Below are positions 104 to 16,727 of a DNA stretch of 50,852 nucleotides, piece after piece; position 1 is the stretch's first letter; every line of letters begins with the position of its first letter. Under the pieces are notes generated by a model. It saw only the letters and a list, made by a program, of their open reading frames with translations. It did not search any database and was not told the DNA's origin. Both the position numbers and the translations under genes were made by a program. The stretch is from the IMG/VR virus record IMGVR_UViG_3300017917_004171, positions 1 through 50,852 of that record. The stretch is one strand, 5' to 3'. The stretch comes from a virus.

Positions 104-634
104 TTAATTTTTATATACCGTGTAATTATTAAATTTTAAAATTTTTTCACACCATTCAAGTAGTTCATCTACTGTTAAATCAGTTTTCATTTTATTAACG
201 ATTTCATGTGTAATACCTAAATTTTCTAAACTATTATCTCCACCTTTACTTGATGGGAAAATATGGTCAAAATTGTAATTGTTTTCAAATAAATTTATTT
301 TTTCACCGGATAAATAACAAACTGTATCAACACCAAATTTATTTATAATATCATCTAAAATAAATGTCTGTTCAATATTTTTATCATGTTTACCATTTGA
401 TGATTTATTAAATTTTCTGACCATTTCTCTAACATATCTTGGTTGTCGATATTTGAATGATTCATATTTTCTTATCAAAACATTTTCCCTTCTTTTTTGT
501 CTTCTTAATAATGTTTTTTCTTTTTGACCATTACCTAAATGATACGATATTGTTCCCTTGGAACAATTTAATATTTTAGAAATCTGACTATAAGATTTCC
601 CTTCATTTTTTAGTTGTAAAATTTTTTCTTTCAT
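104..634 (-). CDS. HNH endonuclease with N-terminal helix-turn-helix
   Basis: A 176-residue DNA-cutting protein, probably a free-standing homing-type endonuclease. Residues 1-35 form a helix-turn-helix (YSQISKILNCSKGTISYHLG) of the kind that recognises DNA. A basic linker covers about 40-80. The HNH fold is at about 103-150, with DHIFP (123-127), the spaced Asn of GGDNSLENL, and a downstream His/Asn segment. It is the last gene before the small leftward gene at the window edge and lies just left of the tRNA cluster, a common place for such genes in T4-like phages. An inverted repeat at 652-681 precedes its start. The HNH family call is solid; the homing role is inferred. Confidence 0.85.
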   Translation of the reverse strand: MKEKILQLKNEGKSYSQISKILNCSKGTISYHLGNGQKEKTLLRRQKRRENVLIRKYESFKYRQPRYVREMVRKFNKSSNGKHDKNIEQTFILDDIINKFGVDTVCYLSGEKINLFENNYNFDHIFPSSKGGDNSLENLGITHEIVNKMKTDLTVDELLEWCEKILKFNNYTVYKN

Positions 635-681: not shown

Positions 682-690
682 CATATTTGC

Positions 691-758
691 ACGGGTTGAA
701 GTAATCGAAACCTCTCCTATGGATTTGGAGTCCATTTGGCTACCTTAGCCTAACCCGT
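691..758 (-). tRNA. tRNA-Trp (CCA)
   Basis: A cloverleaf can be folded on the minus strand. The acceptor stem ACGGGTT/AACCCGT pairs over 7 bp. The anticodon stem ATGGA/TCCAT closes the loop CTCCAAA, giving anticodon CCA. The T-arm carries loop TTCGATT. The D-arm is short, with about a 5-base loop, making the gene only 68 nt. The 3' CCA is not encoded. It is the last gene of a five-tRNA leftward array. Confidence 0.85.
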
Positions 759-766
759 GTATGTGT

Positions 767-839
767 GACCCCTCCGCGACTCGAACGCGGGACTTCTTCA
801 TTAAAAGTGAAGAGCTCTATCCAACTGAGCTAAGAGGTC
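767..839 (-). tRNA. tRNA-Lys (TTT)
   Basis: The acceptor stem GACCTCT pairs with AGGGGTC with one G-U pair. The D-arm is canonical (AGCTC...GAGCT). The anticodon stem CTTCA/TGAAG encloses CTTTTAA, giving anticodon TTT. The T-loop is TTCGAGT. The gene is 73 nt without CCA and lies 8 nt from tRNA-Trp in the same orientation, so they are probably one transcript. Confidence 0.92.
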
Positions 840-846
840 AAAATGT

Positions 847-918
847 GGAGAAAGTTGGTTACGCTCCAACTCCTTCGGATTTTCAGTCCGATGCTTCTAC
901 TAAGTTAGCTTCTTCTCC
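847..918 (-). tRNA. tRNA-Phe (GAA)
   Basis: The acceptor stem GGAGAAG pairs with TTTCTCC with a terminal G-U. The anticodon stem TCGGA/TCCGA encloses CTGAAAA, giving anticodon GAA. The gene is 72 nt without encoded CCA, in the middle of the leftward array. Confidence 0.9.
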
Positions 919-924
919 TTATGT

Positions 925-996
925 TGAAATGATGGGACTCGAACCTATAACCTTCCGCGTATCAGACGGATGCTCTCACCATTGAGCTACATTTCA
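925..996 (-). tRNA. tRNA-Ile (GAT)
   Basis: The acceptor stem TGAAATG/CATTTCA is perfect over 7 bp. The anticodon stem TCCGT/GCGGA has one G-U pair and encloses CTGATAC, giving anticodon GAT. The D-arm TAGCTC...GAGCA and T-loop TTCGAGT are canonical. The gene is 72 nt without encoded CCA. Confidence 0.9.
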
Positions 997-1031
997 ATTT
1001 TTTATCCACGATTTCAAAGAACTATTACTGT

Positions 1032-1100
1032 GGACACGTAGGGAATCGAACCCTTTCATTCTGATTGCAAATCAGATGGTCTGCCATCGACATCCGGCCC
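1032..1100 (-). tRNA. tRNA-Ala (TGC), acceptor stem imperfect
   Basis: The anticodon stem TCTGA/TCAGA encloses TTTGCAA, so the anticodon is TGC. The T-loop is TTCGATT. The acceptor GGGCCGG against CGTGTCC carries the G3-U70 wobble, the main identity element of alanine tRNA, and A73 follows. Pairs 5-68 and 6-67 are mismatched and one T-stem pair is lost. It may therefore be a diverged but charged tRNA or a decaying one. It is the first tRNA of the array and directly follows the terminator at 1107-1138. Confidence 0.7.
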
Positions 1101-1106
1101 AAAAAC

Positions 1107-1138
1107 AAAAAACCCTGAGATTTTGTCTCAGGGTTTTT
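1107..1138 (-). terminator. Strong hairpin terminator, possible attenuator
   Basis: On the leftward transcript AAAAACCCTGAGA pairs with TCTCAGGGTTTTT around loop CAAAA, followed by a T-run. It lies between the 34-codon ORF at 1163-1267 and the tRNA array, so the tRNAs would need read-through. The sequence TGTCTCAGGGTTT in the ORF (1185-1197) can pair over 13 bases with this hairpin's 5' arm and prevent it forming. The hairpin also works on the plus strand. Confidence 0.75.
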
Positions 1139-1162
1139 CTATTATATTATTGTTAAACTTTC

Positions 1163-1267
1163 TTAACTCACCATAATATCAACGAAACCCTGAGACATAC
1201 CAATCTCACCCATCGCACACCATTTGGTTGCGAACGTTGTAAATGCGATATGTGTAAAGCGTTTCAT
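1163..1267 (-). CDS. 34-residue ORF, candidate leader peptide of tRNA operon
   Basis: A complete short frame starting MKRFTHIAFTTFATKW and ending FVDIMVS. It is less AT-rich than its surroundings and uses codons such as CGC, TTC, ACG and GCG that are uncommon in neighbouring genes. It is read from a good Bacteroidota-type promoter at 1287-1317 and is followed after 24 nt by a terminator. Codons 25-28 contain a copy of the terminator's 3' arm. Residues Phe, Ala, Lys, Trp and Ile, the five amino acids served by the downstream tRNAs, make up 13 of its 34 positions, and Phe-Ala-Thr-Lys-Trp is contiguous. A leader-peptide role is inference. It could instead be a small independent protein or a structured RNA. 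Confidence 0.5.
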   Translation of the reverse strand: MKRFTHIAFTTFATKWCAMGEIGMSQGFVDIMVS

Positions 1268-1286
1268 TGAATTTATTATTTTTTTA

Positions 1287-1317
1287 CAAATGTATATATA
1301 AGTATTGACATAATCAA
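1287..1317 (-). promoter_or_regulatory. Host-type promoter for leader ORF and tRNA array
   Basis: On the minus strand TTG, 20 bases, then TACATTTG fits the Bacteroidota primary sigma pattern (TTTG, about 19-21 bases, TAnnTTTG). The -7 element lies about 20 bases upstream of the 34-codon ORF start. The promoter would drive that ORF and, by read-through, the five tRNAs. Confidence 0.55.
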
Positions 1318-1388: not shown

Positions 1389-1907
1389 ATGAAAAATGTA
1401 TCTCTCTCCACATTCATCATAATAGCATTTACTGTGCTATTTTTTAATTTTAACACATTTGGCCAGTCCAAAAAAGTGTATGTTTCAGAAATTGAAAATC
1501 GTATAAAAATTGGTCCTGTTACAGGAAACAGAAATTTTGCATTTGGTGTAAAAAACATTTTTCAAGAAATTTTACAGGACAAAAATTTAGACATTGTTGA
1601 AAATTCTGAAGACACGGATTACATCATTAGTGCTGAAATTATGTATTTCGATGTAAACAGAACTAAAAGAAACGTATCTGTTTTTCATTCGGATAAAGAA
1701 GAAACTCTTGTTATCATTAAGGGTTTAATTAAAACAAAAGAAGGTAAAAAAATTAAAGAGTATGTTGCCGAGGAATCGAGTTCGGAAATTTCGACTTCAA
1801 CGATTTTAACAGGAGAAGGCTCTGACACAGTAAATCAACAGGCGTTATCGTCCGCTATAAAAAAGACATGCGAATCATTAATAAATAAACTTACAGAAAA
1901 AATATGA
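1389..1907 (+). CDS. Exported protein, possibly CsgG-like
   Basis: A 172-residue exported protein. The ATG at 1389 is chosen because it opens directly into a signal peptide (MKNVSLSTFIIIAFTVLF, ending NTFGQ at about residue 26) and lies 8 nt from a promoter motif; an upstream ATG at 1368 would bury the signal. The mature part begins with a beta-strand (KKVYVSEIEN). It continues with a helix and FQEILQDKNLDIVE, then DYIISAEIMYFDV, and ends in a helix (SAIKKTCESLINKL). This order resembles the periplasmic domain of CsgG-family proteins, but the match is weak and no membrane-insertion segment is obvious. It is the first gene of the cluster and overlaps the next start by ATGA, indicating coupled translation. 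Confidence 0.7.
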   Translation: MKNVSLSTFIIIAFTVLFFNFNTFGQSKKVYVSEIENRIKIGPVTGNRNFAFGVKNIFQEILQDKNLDIVENSEDTDYIISAEIMYFDVNRTKRNVSVFHSDKEETLVIIKGLIKTKEGKKIKEYVAEESSSEISTSTILTGEGSDTVNQQALSSAIKKTCESLINKLTEKI

Positions 1908-3559
1908 AAAAACTCTTAGTATCTCTCTCACTAATTTTAATGTCGTTCATTTCATTTGGACAATTAACAATTAGTCAATCAATGGTGCCACCATCCGGAA
2001 TGAAGGTTGGTGATACGATAACAGTTAAATACACATTATCAAAAGGACAGGTAATTAAAAATCCTCGTTATTTGTGGTTTAGATATCAGTATAATAACAA
2101 AGCGTTAAATTACGTATCTACCGCATTTAATCAGGGTGCTTCTGCACAAACATTCTATACAAGTTGGAATAACTATAAATTCAATTTTAATGGTGGTGCG
2201 AGTGATAATGACTTGGATGTTCAATATGGTTTGACTCCTTGGAATTATACCTCAAATCCTGATTGGAATGTTGGCCAATTAACAGTACAAAGAGCCGACG
2301 CTTCAATTAATGGATTAATTGCAACTCAAAAATATACTTTAAAAGACTTAAACAGTTATCAAAACATTTTTAAAATAGATTTGGCTACGGGTACAGACAC
2401 CACAGGTGCGGCCGTTGGAACAATTTATGGTGGTGGTTGGTCATCGTTAGGAAATGTTACGGGTAATACTTCACAATTTAAAGTAAGAGCATTATTTCCA
2501 CAAGGATATACAATTAGTGACCATACAGTTCAGTTAATGAAATTAGCAGCAAATGGTACAATAGATTGGAATCAACAACCAATTGCAACTGCACCTTTAG
2601 ATGCGAGTGGTGAGGCTATATTTACAACACAAGTTAAAGTTGGTGATTCATTAGGTGTGTTTATTGCACCTGCTTGGCAAAAGACTTGGATGAATAACAT
2701 TGTAACAGTATCCGATGCGTATAAAGCGTTTTTAGGGGTATCTCAAACTGATATTAGTGGAACACCAAACTATTTTACATTGCCGGCATTAGAAAAGAAA
2801 GTAGGTAAAGTAACAACAGGAAATAATAATCCATTTGGTGAATCTGATTCGTATTATATATTTGCACACATATTAGGACAAGATGTTTCATCAAAAGCCA
2901 TGTTACCAAAATCAACATCATCAAATGTTAGGTGGTATAGTGGTCTATTAAATCAAAGTTGGTTAAATGGAACGCCTACAAATAAAGTATATATCACACA
3001 ACCTATTCAAGAAGCACATGCAGTATTTGCTTGGGGTGGTGATTTAGATTGGTCACACTCATCTGCACCTTCTGAAATTGCGAGTAGAATTACTGCGGGT
3101 CAATTTACAAATTCAAGTAAAACATCTTCACAACCTATGATGTCAAAAACGATATCTAATCCAATTTCAATGACATATATAAATAAAACATTGGAAACAA
3201 CAAATTTGGGTATTACATCGACAATAGAAAATGGTAAAGTTGTTTTAACAACAAAATTAACAAAAGAAGGATTAGCCGGATTACAAATAGTAATGAACTA
3301 CGATTCATCTAAATTAACACTAGAAAATGTGATTTTTGACACAGGTTCGGCAATAACTAACTTTTCAACAAAAGAAGATGGGAGATTGACTTTTGGGTCT
3401 ATTGACCAATTAAAAACTTCAAGAATTAAAACAGGAAATCCTTATAAGTTAATATTTACTACTAAAGAGACTTTGACAAATACCGCAGGTTTATTCTACT
3501 TTGTTTTATCAGACGCAGTAGACGCAAGTGGTAACAAAGTGACTCTTATAGTGGAATAA
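1904..3559 (+). CDS. Secreted protein with dockerin-like and cohesin-like modules
   Basis: A 551-residue protein with a clear signal peptide (MKKLLVSLSLILMSFISFG, then Gln). The N-terminal half is Ser/Thr/Asn/Gly-rich and beta-like. About 265-330 holds a dockerin-like pair of helices (IVTVSDAYKAFLGVS and ESDSYYIFAHILGQ) with no complete calcium loop. GGDLDWSHS follows. The last ~110 residues resemble a cohesin-type beta-sandwich (GLAGLQIVMNYDSSKLTLENV). The same order occurs in the next gene, so the two are paralogs. It overlaps the previous gene by ATGA and the next by one base. Likely exposed on the cell surface or carried on the virion; the ligand is unknown. Confidence 0.8.
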   Translation: MKKLLVSLSLILMSFISFGQLTISQSMVPPSGMKVGDTITVKYTLSKGQVIKNPRYLWFRYQYNNKALNYVSTAFNQGASAQTFYTSWNNYKFNFNGGASDNDLDVQYGLTPWNYTSNPDWNVGQLTVQRADASINGLIATQKYTLKDLNSYQNIFKIDLATGTDTTGAAVGTIYGGGWSSLGNVTGNTSQFKVRALFPQGYTISDHTVQLMKLAANGTIDWNQQPIATAPLDASGEAIFTTQVKVGDSLGVFIAPAWQKTWMNNIVTVSDAYKAFLGVSQTDISGTPNYFTLPALEKKVGKVTTGNNNPFGESDSYYIFAHILGQDVSSKAMLPKSTSSNVRWYSGLLNQSWLNGTPTNKVYITQPIQEAHAVFAWGGDLDWSHSSAPSEIASRITAGQFTNSSKTSSQPMMSKTISNPISMTYINKTLETTNLGITSTIENGKVVLTTKLTKEGLAGLQIVMNYDSSKLTLENVIFDTGSAITNFSTKEDGRLTFGSIDQLKTSRIKTGNPYKLIFTTKETLTNTAGLFYFVLSDAVDASGNKVTLIVE

Positions 3560-14708: not shown

Positions 14709-16727
14709 TTAATTTTTTTTAGAAATCACTAACTGTTCATTTTCAAAAATAAGATGTGATTCTTCATTTTCTACAATATTCTCTTTTAAAATTTCCTCAC
14801 TCAAGAAATCTTCGCAAAGATTTTGAATGATTCTTTTGATTGGTCGTGCACCATATTCCTCTTGTGTATTCAAATGGTGAATTTGTTTTTCAACACTTTC
14901 ATCGAATGTTACTTTATATCCTTTATCAGAAAGTCGAGAAGATAATTTACCTAATTCAACTTTGATGATTTTATATAATGTTTCCTCATTTAATGTGTTA
15001 AATAAAACTATATCATCAATACGATTCAAGAATTCAGGATTGAATTGTTGTTTTAATGATTTTTGAATAATCGATTTACGAACTTCATATTTTTCATTTT
15101 CTGTGTTTGAAGTTACAAAACCAACTCCACCACCAAACTCAGAAACCTTCTTGGCTCCAACGTTTGATGTCATAATAATCAAACAGTTTGTAAAATTAAC
15201 CTTTCTACCAAATGAGTCAGTTAAATGACCCTCATCCAAAATTTGAAGTAGTAAATTGAACACATCTTTGTGTGCCTTTTCAATCTCATCAAATAGCACT
15301 ACTGAGAATGGATTGTTTTTAATCTTTTCAGTTAATTGTCCACCTTCTTCATATCCAACATAACCCGGAGGAGAACCAATTAATCTAGATACATTATGTT
15401 TTTCCATAAACTCACTCATATCAACACGAATGATTTTATCAGGGTCACCAAATAATTGTTCAGCCAATGATTTTGCTAAGAAAGTTTTACCTACACCGGT
15501 TGAACCCAAGAATATAAATGAACCAATAGGTTTGTTCACATCTTTAATACCTACTCTATTTCTTCGTATTGCTCTCGATATTGAACTAATTGCTTCATCT
15601 TGACCAATCACCTTAGCTGAGATATTTTTTTCCATTGTAAGTAATTTCTCGGTTTCTTTTTTGTCCAATTTGGTAATTGGGACACCCGTCATTTGCGAAA
15701 CAACAGAATATACATCATCAATAGAAACAGGAACTTTTTTACTTTTTTGACCTTCTAACCATTTTTTCTTTTCTAACTCCAATTTATCAACAACACTTCG
15801 TTCTTTGTCCCTCAATTTAGCGGCTTGTTCATAATTCTGTGCCTTTACTACTTGGAGTTTTTTATCTTTAATTTGTTCAACCTCTTTCTTTAAGTTTTCT
15901 ATAACTTCAGGGATAAGACTTGACACTCGTTTTTCTGAACCCAATTCGTCTAAAACATCAATCGCCTTATCAGGAAATTGTCTATCAGTGATATATCTAC
16001 CTGATAATTTTACGATTGTTTCAATTACCCCTTCTTCATAGATAACTTTATGAAAATCTTGATAGGATGTTTTTAGGTTTTCTAAAATCATTATTGTTTC
16101 GGTGGCTGTTGGTTCGTTTAATGTGATTTTTTGAAATCTTCTAACCAAAGCACCGTCTTTTTCAATGTGTTTTTTATATTCATCAAATGTTGTTGCTCCA
16201 ATACATTGAATTTCTCCACGAGCCAACGCCGGTTTTAAAATGTTTGCAGCATCCATAGCACCACTTGCATTACCTGCACCTACCATTGTGTGAAGTTCAT
16301 CAATAAACACAATTACATTTGGAGCTTCTTGTAATTCGTTAATGATTGCTTTGATTCTTTCTTCAAATTGTCCGCGGTATTTTGTACCCGCAACTAAAGA
16401 TGTAAGGTCCAAAGACATAATTCTTTTTTCCAATAAAATGGTTGGACAATCACCTTTATGAATCATTAATGCTAACTTCTCAACAAGTGCCGATTTACCA
16501 ACACCGGCATCACCAACAATTACCGCATTATTTTTTTTCTTTCGAGAAAGAATCTGAGCTATTCTCTTAACTTCTTTTTCTCTACCAACAACAGGGTCAA
16601 TTTTACCCTCTTCAGCAAGTTTTATGAGGTCTCTTGAAAAGTTATCCAAAATAGGTGTGTTAGAACCCTTTTTTGTCCGTTTAGGATTAATGGTTGGGTT
16701 TCCATCGTCAAAGAAATCTACCGACAT
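14709..16727 (-). CDS. ClpA/ClpC-type AAA+ unfoldase lacking the N-terminal domain
   Basis: A 672-residue Hsp100 protein with two AAA+ modules. D1 Walker A is GDAGVGKS (72-79) with Walker B VIVFIDE (138-144). A UVR-like middle segment (about 296-325, AQNYEQAAKLRDKE) marks the ClpC branch. D2 Walker A is GSTGVGKT (408-415) with Walker B VVLFDE (477-482). VGF (535-537) sits where ClpA, ClpC and ClpX carry the loop that docks on ClpP, so it may feed host ClpP. The Clp-N substrate and adaptor domain is missing. The gene has a good host-type promoter and diverges from an Hsp20 gene. It could redirect host proteolysis or remodel virion assembly. Confidence 0.92.
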   Translation of the reverse strand: MSVDFFDDGNPTINPKRTKKGSNTPILDNFSRDLIKLAEEGKIDPVVGREKEVKRIAQILSRKKKNNAVIVGDAGVGKSALVEKLALMIHKGDCPTILLEKRIMSLDLTSLVAGTKYRGQFEERIKAIINELQEAPNVIVFIDELHTMVGAGNASGAMDAANILKPALARGEIQCIGATTFDEYKKHIEKDGALVRRFQKITLNEPTATETIMILENLKTSYQDFHKVIYEEGVIETIVKLSGRYITDRQFPDKAIDVLDELGSEKRVSSLIPEVIENLKKEVEQIKDKKLQVVKAQNYEQAAKLRDKERSVVDKLELEKKKWLEGQKSKKVPVSIDDVYSVVSQMTGVPITKLDKKETEKLLTMEKNISAKVIGQDEAISSISRAIRRNRVGIKDVNKPIGSFIFLGSTGVGKTFLAKSLAEQLFGDPDKIIRVDMSEFMEKHNVSRLIGSPPGYVGYEEGGQLTEKIKNNPFSVVLFDEIEKAHKDVFNLLLQILDEGHLTDSFGRKVNFTNCLIIMTSNVGAKKVSEFGGGVGFVTSNTENEKYEVRKSIIQKSLKQQFNPEFLNRIDDIVLFNTLNEETLYKIIKVELGKLSSRLSDKGYKVTFDESVEKQIHHLNTQEEYGARPIKRIIQNLCEDFLSEEILKENIVENEESHLIFENEQLVISKKN

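Follow-up and report, generated by a model that had tools for sequence, protein, structure and literature searches.

Leader peptides matched to downstream tRNA genes suggest ribosome-mediated attenuation of phage tRNA operons

It has been asked for decades why phages carry tRNA genes, the expression of which is generally treated as unregulated. The locus described here raises the question of whether a phage tRNA operon is controlled by the supply of the tRNAs it encodes, as the first-pass annotation had proposed. We refer to the entire analyzed stretch, a virus record of 50,852 bases, as the window. The window encodes a T4-type portal protein, with the best matches in phage records to Microcystis phage Mel-JY01 (42%) and to Flavobacterium phages vB_FspM_immuto (36%); these matches, combined with the promoter type described below, suggest a Bacteroidetes host.

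Transcription towards the tRNA genes would start at a Bacteroidetes-type promoter on the minus strand (1287..1317), in which a -33 TTG (1315-1317) and a -7 box TACATTTG (1287-1294) are separated by a 20-nt spacer. The leftward host-type promoter annotated at this position is indeed present and fits the flavobacterial pattern TTG / TAnnTTTG, of which TAnnTTTG is the flavobacterial sigma-A -7 box (PMC9723704); it was not reported by an E. coli-type promoter scan of the window. The promoter is followed by the 34-codon minus-strand ORF noted in the first pass (MKRFTHIAFTTFATKWCAMGEIGMSQGFVDIMVS; 1163..1267), here called leader 1, of which codons 2-22 (KRFTHIAFTTFATKWCAMGEI; 1202..1264) make up the sampling core. 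Using the tRNA pattern and the leader peptide as scan queries, we identified about 26 distinct homologous leader-1 sequences, with the consensus M(R/K)QFTHTMSFTICSKWADER; within the window's clade, leader 1 reads MKRFTHI(A/T)FTTFATKWCAMGEI. TAnnTTTG is found at most 75 nt upstream of leader 1 in 22 of the 26 distinct upstream sequences, vs. 7% in shuffled sequences, and pN/pS in the 15-codon core of the homologues is 0.33, which indicates that the leader ORF is under purifying selection. In one lineage, L117/L118 (IMGVR_UViG_3300020198_000006, 3300020222_001274), a leader-1 copy has an altered tail and no proper terminator, and is followed by almost no tRNA genes; apparently, the system decayed together with the array, with loss of both terminator and array.

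Between the leader and the tRNA genes, on the minus strand, lies an intrinsic terminator (1107..1139) with a 14-pair stem and a T tract, in agreement with the strong terminator previously placed at 1107-1138. Its 5' arm, segment B (AAACCCTGAGACA; 1124..1136), can pair either with the 3' arm, segment C (TCTCAGGGTTT; 1110..1120), after which the T tract follows, or, over 13 bases, with the antiterminator strand, segment A (TGTCTCAGGGTTT; 1185..1197). This 13-base complementarity, which was part of the original proposal, exceeds that in shuffled sequences: the A:B duplex has a predicted energy of -22.4 kcal/mol, compared to -9.4 ± 2.1 kcal/mol in dinucleotide shuffles (0 of 300). The leader region as a whole also folds clearly better than shuffles (z = -7.5; 0 of 200). 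When the window and 17 related loci were scanned for exact repeats, segments A and B gave the sole triple consisting of A, the reverse complement of A, and A. In relatives, the pairing of segment A with its own terminator is kept despite different letters, with own A:B pairing averaging -13.3 kcal/mol vs. -8.3 kcal/mol between families; this comparison of own and cross pairing was used in place of column-wise covariation, MAFFT shifting segment A by nine columns between subgroups. Weak A:B pairing, within the range of shuffles, was observed in G031 L2, G042 C and G018 L2. A terminator between leader and tRNA genes is found in relatives, in the other leader families and in the Cellulophaga phages discussed below. 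A separate tRNA promoter past the terminator would argue against control by the leader; direct reading of the interval between the terminator and the first tRNA gene identified no TAnnTTTG.

Downstream of the terminator, the window contains, on the minus strand, a tRNA-Ala-like gene (TGC) with an unusual D arm (1031..1100; Rfam RF00005, 31.3 bits; not called by ARAGORN at default settings), followed by tRNA-Ile(GAT) (923..996), tRNA-Phe(GAA) (845..918), tRNA-Lys(TTT) (765..839) and tRNA-Trp(CCA) (689..758), each identified by both ARAGORN and Rfam. The five tRNA genes of the first-pass annotation are real, but their number is an artefact: the left end of the window cuts the array, so that only five are visible. 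The nearest relative, G001 (84% identity over 559 bp), carries about 22-24 tRNA genes on the same strand. In G001 and about 20 other contigs, the array extends up to about 5-13 kb, and the complete cases include about 20-25 tRNAs on one strand that cover nearly all amino acids (ARAGORN; Rfam), several of the calls in relatives resting on a relaxed ARAGORN threshold. Past tRNA-Trp, the first block continues in relatives with Arg(acg), Cys, His, Met, Thr or Asp, Ser and Glu.

Several other features were observed in and around these arrays. The Ala(TGC)-like tRNA, with its short D arm and poorly paired acceptor stem, follows a pattern detected in 49 viral-contig stretches; it is conserved in many phages, including arrays without the leader, and is replaced by an ordinary tRNA-Ala in some relatives. 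An HNH endonuclease gene lies in the array of the window (104-634, minus strand), and homing endonucleases often sit in tRNA arrays. GOLLD RNA and a tmRNA gene are located kilobases past the array, on the same strand, in L131 (10222-10604), L136, L138, L141, L148 and L150. The freshwater-1 RNA (RF02979) occupies the interval between the Leu and Arg genes of the second block in L140 (3364-3425), L143 (3695-3757), L144 (3654-3716) and L145 (3834-3896). Anticodon-CTA tRNAs (Pyl in ARAGORN), present in or near the array in L135 (5377), L139 (18472) and L144 (9137; all in oriented coordinates), are possible amber suppressors. The window also encodes a Clp-family ATPase (AAA_2 and ClpB_D2-small domains; PHROG ATP-dependent protease; 14709-16727, minus strand). 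In L015 and L025, inspection by eye found a tmRNA-type-looking sequence, and not a tRNA array, upstream of the homologue of window 1904-3559. A link between a neighboring protein gene and the system was considered and rejected, as the genomes found through that gene mostly have no adjoining tRNA array.

Ala, Ile, Phe, Lys and Trp account for 13 of the 34 leader codons, exactly as counted earlier. The idea that the leader samples the downstream tRNAs stands, but its restriction to five amino acids does not, because the whole first block of about 11 is sampled. In the window, the tRNAs of the G001 first block read 19 of the 20 non-Met core codons (1 of 200,000 permutations), and the five visible tRNAs read 11 of the 20. 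Across the homologues, the amino acids present in the leader-1 core are those for which the first block supplies tRNAs (Ala, Ile, Phe, Lys, Trp, Arg-acg, Cys, His, Met, Asp, Ser-tga and Glu), and those of the second half of the array are mostly absent. Because the latter were mostly missing, we suspected a second leader before the second half; such a leader was first seen by eye in L141 and then found at the same place in 16 genomes. Leader 2 (MKNLNNILTLSTRPLNNGNGYGVQPL...) has its own A/B pair (AGTTCGG / CCGAACT) and, in 13 of the 16 genomes, its own TAnnTTTG promoter 25-28 nt upstream of the ATG, and its codons list the second block: Leu, Arg(AGA), Pro, Asn, Tyr, Val, Thr, Gly, Gln and Ser(AGY). 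Over the 16 related genomes, the ratio of own-block to other-block codons is 240:26 for leader 1 and 305:32 for leader 2, a pooled table that is descriptive, given the relatedness of the genomes. When tRNA labels were permuted genome by genome, 0-5 of 20,000 permutations reached the observed agreement in most genomes, and 35 did so for one truncated array. The genomes compared are kin and not independent, so that pooled p-values overstate the case; the core boundaries and block lists were our choice, and most of the data are metagenomic contigs.

Comparison of genomes that differ in the placement of individual tRNA genes suggests that a codon usually moves between the leaders along with the block of its tRNA gene (Val, Asp, Ser and Thr), although the fit is imperfect. 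With tRNA-Val in the first block (L140, L143-L145), leader 1 has Val (KWAEV) and the leader-2 core is without the GVQP Val, an early Val codon being kept in three of these four genomes. With Asp and Ser(tga) in the second block (L131, L150 and the window's clade), Asp and TCN codons are absent from the leader-1 core and found in leader 2 (NDNG; TCG, TCA). Leader 2 contains no core Thr in 5 of the 8 genomes in which the Thr tRNA is only in the first block, and has Thr in 8 of the 8 genomes in which it is in the second block. L147/L148 have neither tRNA-Lys nor tRNA-Phe near the leader; there, Ile takes the place of the conserved Lys codon, though Phe stays.

Mutually exclusive terminator and antiterminator structures, combined with matching codons, hold not only in the roughly 26 homologous leaders but also in several unrelated leader families, including leaders that were found only because the idea predicted them. 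The sister clade (G004, G005, G006, G008, G011 and G016) has one leader and one, differently ordered array. These single leaders contain all 20 amino acids within 32-43 residues (e.g., MKTLTIHTANYLPMLERTWAGICVFSNLDKQD of L173, 32 residues); based on composition, a peptide of 32 residues would contain all 20 by chance in about 7 of 100,000 cases, and one of 42 residues in 1.8 of 1,000. Five of the leaders with all 20 amino acids are mutually homologous. A third clade (L042, L065, L043 and L067) has two leaders, one of which lists the first block without Ala, Asp, Glu and Gly, and the other (MKNLHISLLGGDLAE...) precedes Leu, Met, Gly, Ala-like, Glu and Asp. The leader of L179 likewise matches its first block. 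In the 65-kb phage G042 (L176), four operons are preceded by four matching leaders: LHQQPQQRRP before Pro, Gln, His and Arg(acg); SYSLSLSYSLS before Leu, Tyr, Ser, Ser and Leu; TNIGTRTNATKWCVGIAMFEK before Trp, Thr, Met, Ile, Glu, Gly, Cys, Met, Ala-like, Val, Lys and Arg(tct); and NFNFDFDN (MKTINFNFDFDNRT) before only tRNA-Asp, -Asn and -Phe. In this genome, 43 of 50 codons fall in their own block (0 of 200,000 permutations).

Among cultivated phages, full arrays were examined in the Cellulophaga phages phi4:1 (NC_021788.1) and phi38:1 (NC_021796.1) only, which we take to be Bacteroidetes phages; immuto carries three tRNAs and Mel-JY01 one. Inspection of the sequences upstream of the tRNA arrays identified three matching leaders in each. 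In phi4:1, leader 1 (QRLHLQELEQP) precedes Pro, Glu, Gln, His, Leu, Leu and Arg; LTKTGITVIDKTKGAR, for which a GTG start was assumed, precedes Ala, Lys, Ile, Gly, Met, Asp, Thr, Val, Arg and Met; and NYCTYNNSNWSFSY precedes Tyr, Ser, Ser, Asn, Trp and Phe. The phi38:1 leaders IMNIATDIRTKGVK, NMTYNNFSWYSNCSFSSYN and LLHQEPLEQLRLP precede the corresponding blocks. Codons fit their own block in 38 of 40 cases in phi4:1 and in 42 of 44 in phi38:1 (0 of 200,000 permutations each), and every isoacceptor of each block is sampled. None of these leaders is annotated as such in the two records, some being unannotated and others lying within 'hypothetical protein' genes. A search for the leader-1 pattern in 84,980 bacterial and archaeal genomes gave no confirmed relative, and tblastn with the leader peptides (leader 1, leader 2, G042 C and G011) against 50,697 deposited phage records gave no significant match.

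The promoter, the ORF, segments A, B and C, the matching of codons to blocks, its recurrence in separate families and its shifts with gene position can all be read in the sequences themselves, and from this comparative anatomy we infer, with high confidence, a mechanism that would involve leader translation, stalling, read-through and a biological trigger. Very probably, the locus is a ribosome-mediated transcription attenuator that adjusts the transcription of a tRNA block to the supply of that block's own tRNAs. RNA polymerase would start at the leader promoter and a ribosome would translate the short ORF. With charged tRNAs for all core codons plentiful, the ribosome would run on and cover A while B is made, B would pair with C, and transcription would stop. 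If any sampled tRNA is scarce, perhaps through demand, through codon mismatch or because a defense nuclease destroys host tRNAs, the ribosome would stall in the core; A, left uncovered, would then pair with B ahead of the synthesis of C, so that no terminator would form and the tRNA block would be transcribed. One leader goes with each block, and where an array has a single leader, that leader contains all 20 amino acids.

We modeled this scheme by placing a ribosome footprint at each codon and folding the transcript to the end of B, with footprint and folding models that are crude. For most of the 29 leaders modeled, the stalls predicted to free A:B coincide with the sampling core and end where A becomes covered; two second leaders show a gap mid-way in these positions. 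The Phe-Ala-Thr-Lys-Trp stretch, where the first-pass annotation had placed the stall, is not decisive, as in the model any core codon (2-22) can stall the ribosome. A ribosome at the stop codon largely abolishes the antiterminator in about 20 of the 29 modeled leaders, the window not being among them. The leaders of the window, G001 L1, L173, L179 and L139 L1 have their stop codon 15-22 nt beyond A, and a ribosome waiting there leaves A uncovered in the model; in these leaders, termination would depend on timely crossing of A by the ribosome or on a second ribosome. Without any ribosome, the truncated model favors the antiterminator, that is, read-through, in most leaders. Taken together, the location of A:B-freeing stalls in the core, the loss of the antiterminator at the stop codon and the own A:B pairing are the basis for the proposed sign of the response, from shortage to read-through.

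The same anatomy could serve another purpose or have another sign, with the leader reporting on general translation of phage mRNA (for timing or host shut-off) or with read-through as the default. The modeled preference of many leaders for the antiterminator without a ribosome and the distance of the window's stop codon from A fit this possibility, but a general sensor needs neither block-by-block codons nor Val, Asp, Ser and Thr codons that move with the genes, and we consider it improbable. Still less credence is due to a nascent arrest peptide of the TnaC/Erm type that senses a metabolite or drug, with the codon match incidental. Such a peptide was our initial idea, based on the conserved FTICSKWA, and one leader-1 group shows strong conservation of 8-10 residues (SF[TI]ICSKWA); the idea was dropped once the second leader and the other families appeared. 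In the window's clade, the core is another one (THIAFTTFATKWCAMGEI) and matches the block that follows it, the leader families of other phages have no common motif and yet all match their own blocks, and NFNFDFDN, SYSLSLSYSLS and QRLHLQELEQP are low-complexity peptides that resemble codon lists rather than arrest motifs.

A structured leader RNA before tRNA genes also brings to mind a T-box-like element that binds tRNA, with an accidental ORF. Yet Rfam at gathering scores yields only tRNA matches and no T-box in the window, the ORF evolves under purifying selection, at the pN/pS given above, many codons are sampled instead of one specifier, and the start codon and promoter spacing are kept, which leaves this explanation hardly any probability. 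Equally slim are the chances of an ordinary terminator with a chance repeat beside a small unrelated gene: intergenic terminators are common, but the 13-base complementarity is beyond that of shuffles and is conserved in about 26 leaders with block-specific codons, and the comparative data rule this candidate out.

The attenuator reading places these leaders next to several known systems. Like the attenuators of amino acid operons (trp, his, thr, ilv, leu, phe), they combine a promoter, a short ORF with codons that report charged tRNA, and alternative antiterminator and terminator hairpins; in a flavobacterium, leader-peptide attenuation has been inferred upstream of amino acid operons (PMC9723704). 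Unlike those attenuators, the phage leaders would control tRNA genes, so that the product's own supply serves as the signal; they sample 3 to 20 amino acids as opposed to one to three, and the phage arrays are partitioned among several leaders. In attenuators of aminoacyl-tRNA synthetase operons (pheST type; a comparative study is cited in PMC4833913), codons likewise report tRNA charging and the synthetase product acts in charging, but one amino acid is sampled and the output is protein-coding, whereas the output of the phage leaders is tRNAs. T-box riboswitches also sense tRNA charging and control a terminator/antiterminator switch, but they bind tRNA directly, without translation. Phage tRNAs have been found to replace depleted host tRNAs and to defeat tRNA-cutting defenses (PMC10264068, PMC11555353), their expression being ascribed in these papers to a strong promoter and anticodon-loop changes, without description of feedback control; a tRNA-cutting defense would be a plausible trigger for the leaders. 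In a literature search limited to open-access papers, no account of tRNA operons under leader control was found. Attenuation as such is known; its use on tRNA genes, the closed loop, the sampling of many codons, the division of arrays and the phage setting appear to be new.

Judging from the genomes compared here, the arrangement is widespread, with many phages of the Bacteroidetes-host type carrying a block-matched leader and a switchable stop before tRNA blocks. We consider it likely that these are self-correcting, multi-input tRNA operons representing a general phage strategy, an inducible counter-defense and tRNA homeostasis circuit; in this probable scenario, leaders would list the tRNAs of their operon (up to 20 amino acids), and a shortage, such as that caused by the firing of an anticodon nuclease, would switch on the matching block. 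The proposed system is testable in the cultivated phages phi4:1 and phi38:1 (host Cellulophaga baltica), and the leaders with all 20 amino acids, which would be natural sensor peptides, might find use as reporters of tRNA sufficiency. The range of attenuation would be extended from one to three to up to 20 amino acids. That the leaders spell out their own tRNAs implies that what is regulated is the supply of tRNA, and this lends support to the view that phage tRNAs answer a tRNA shortage during infection.
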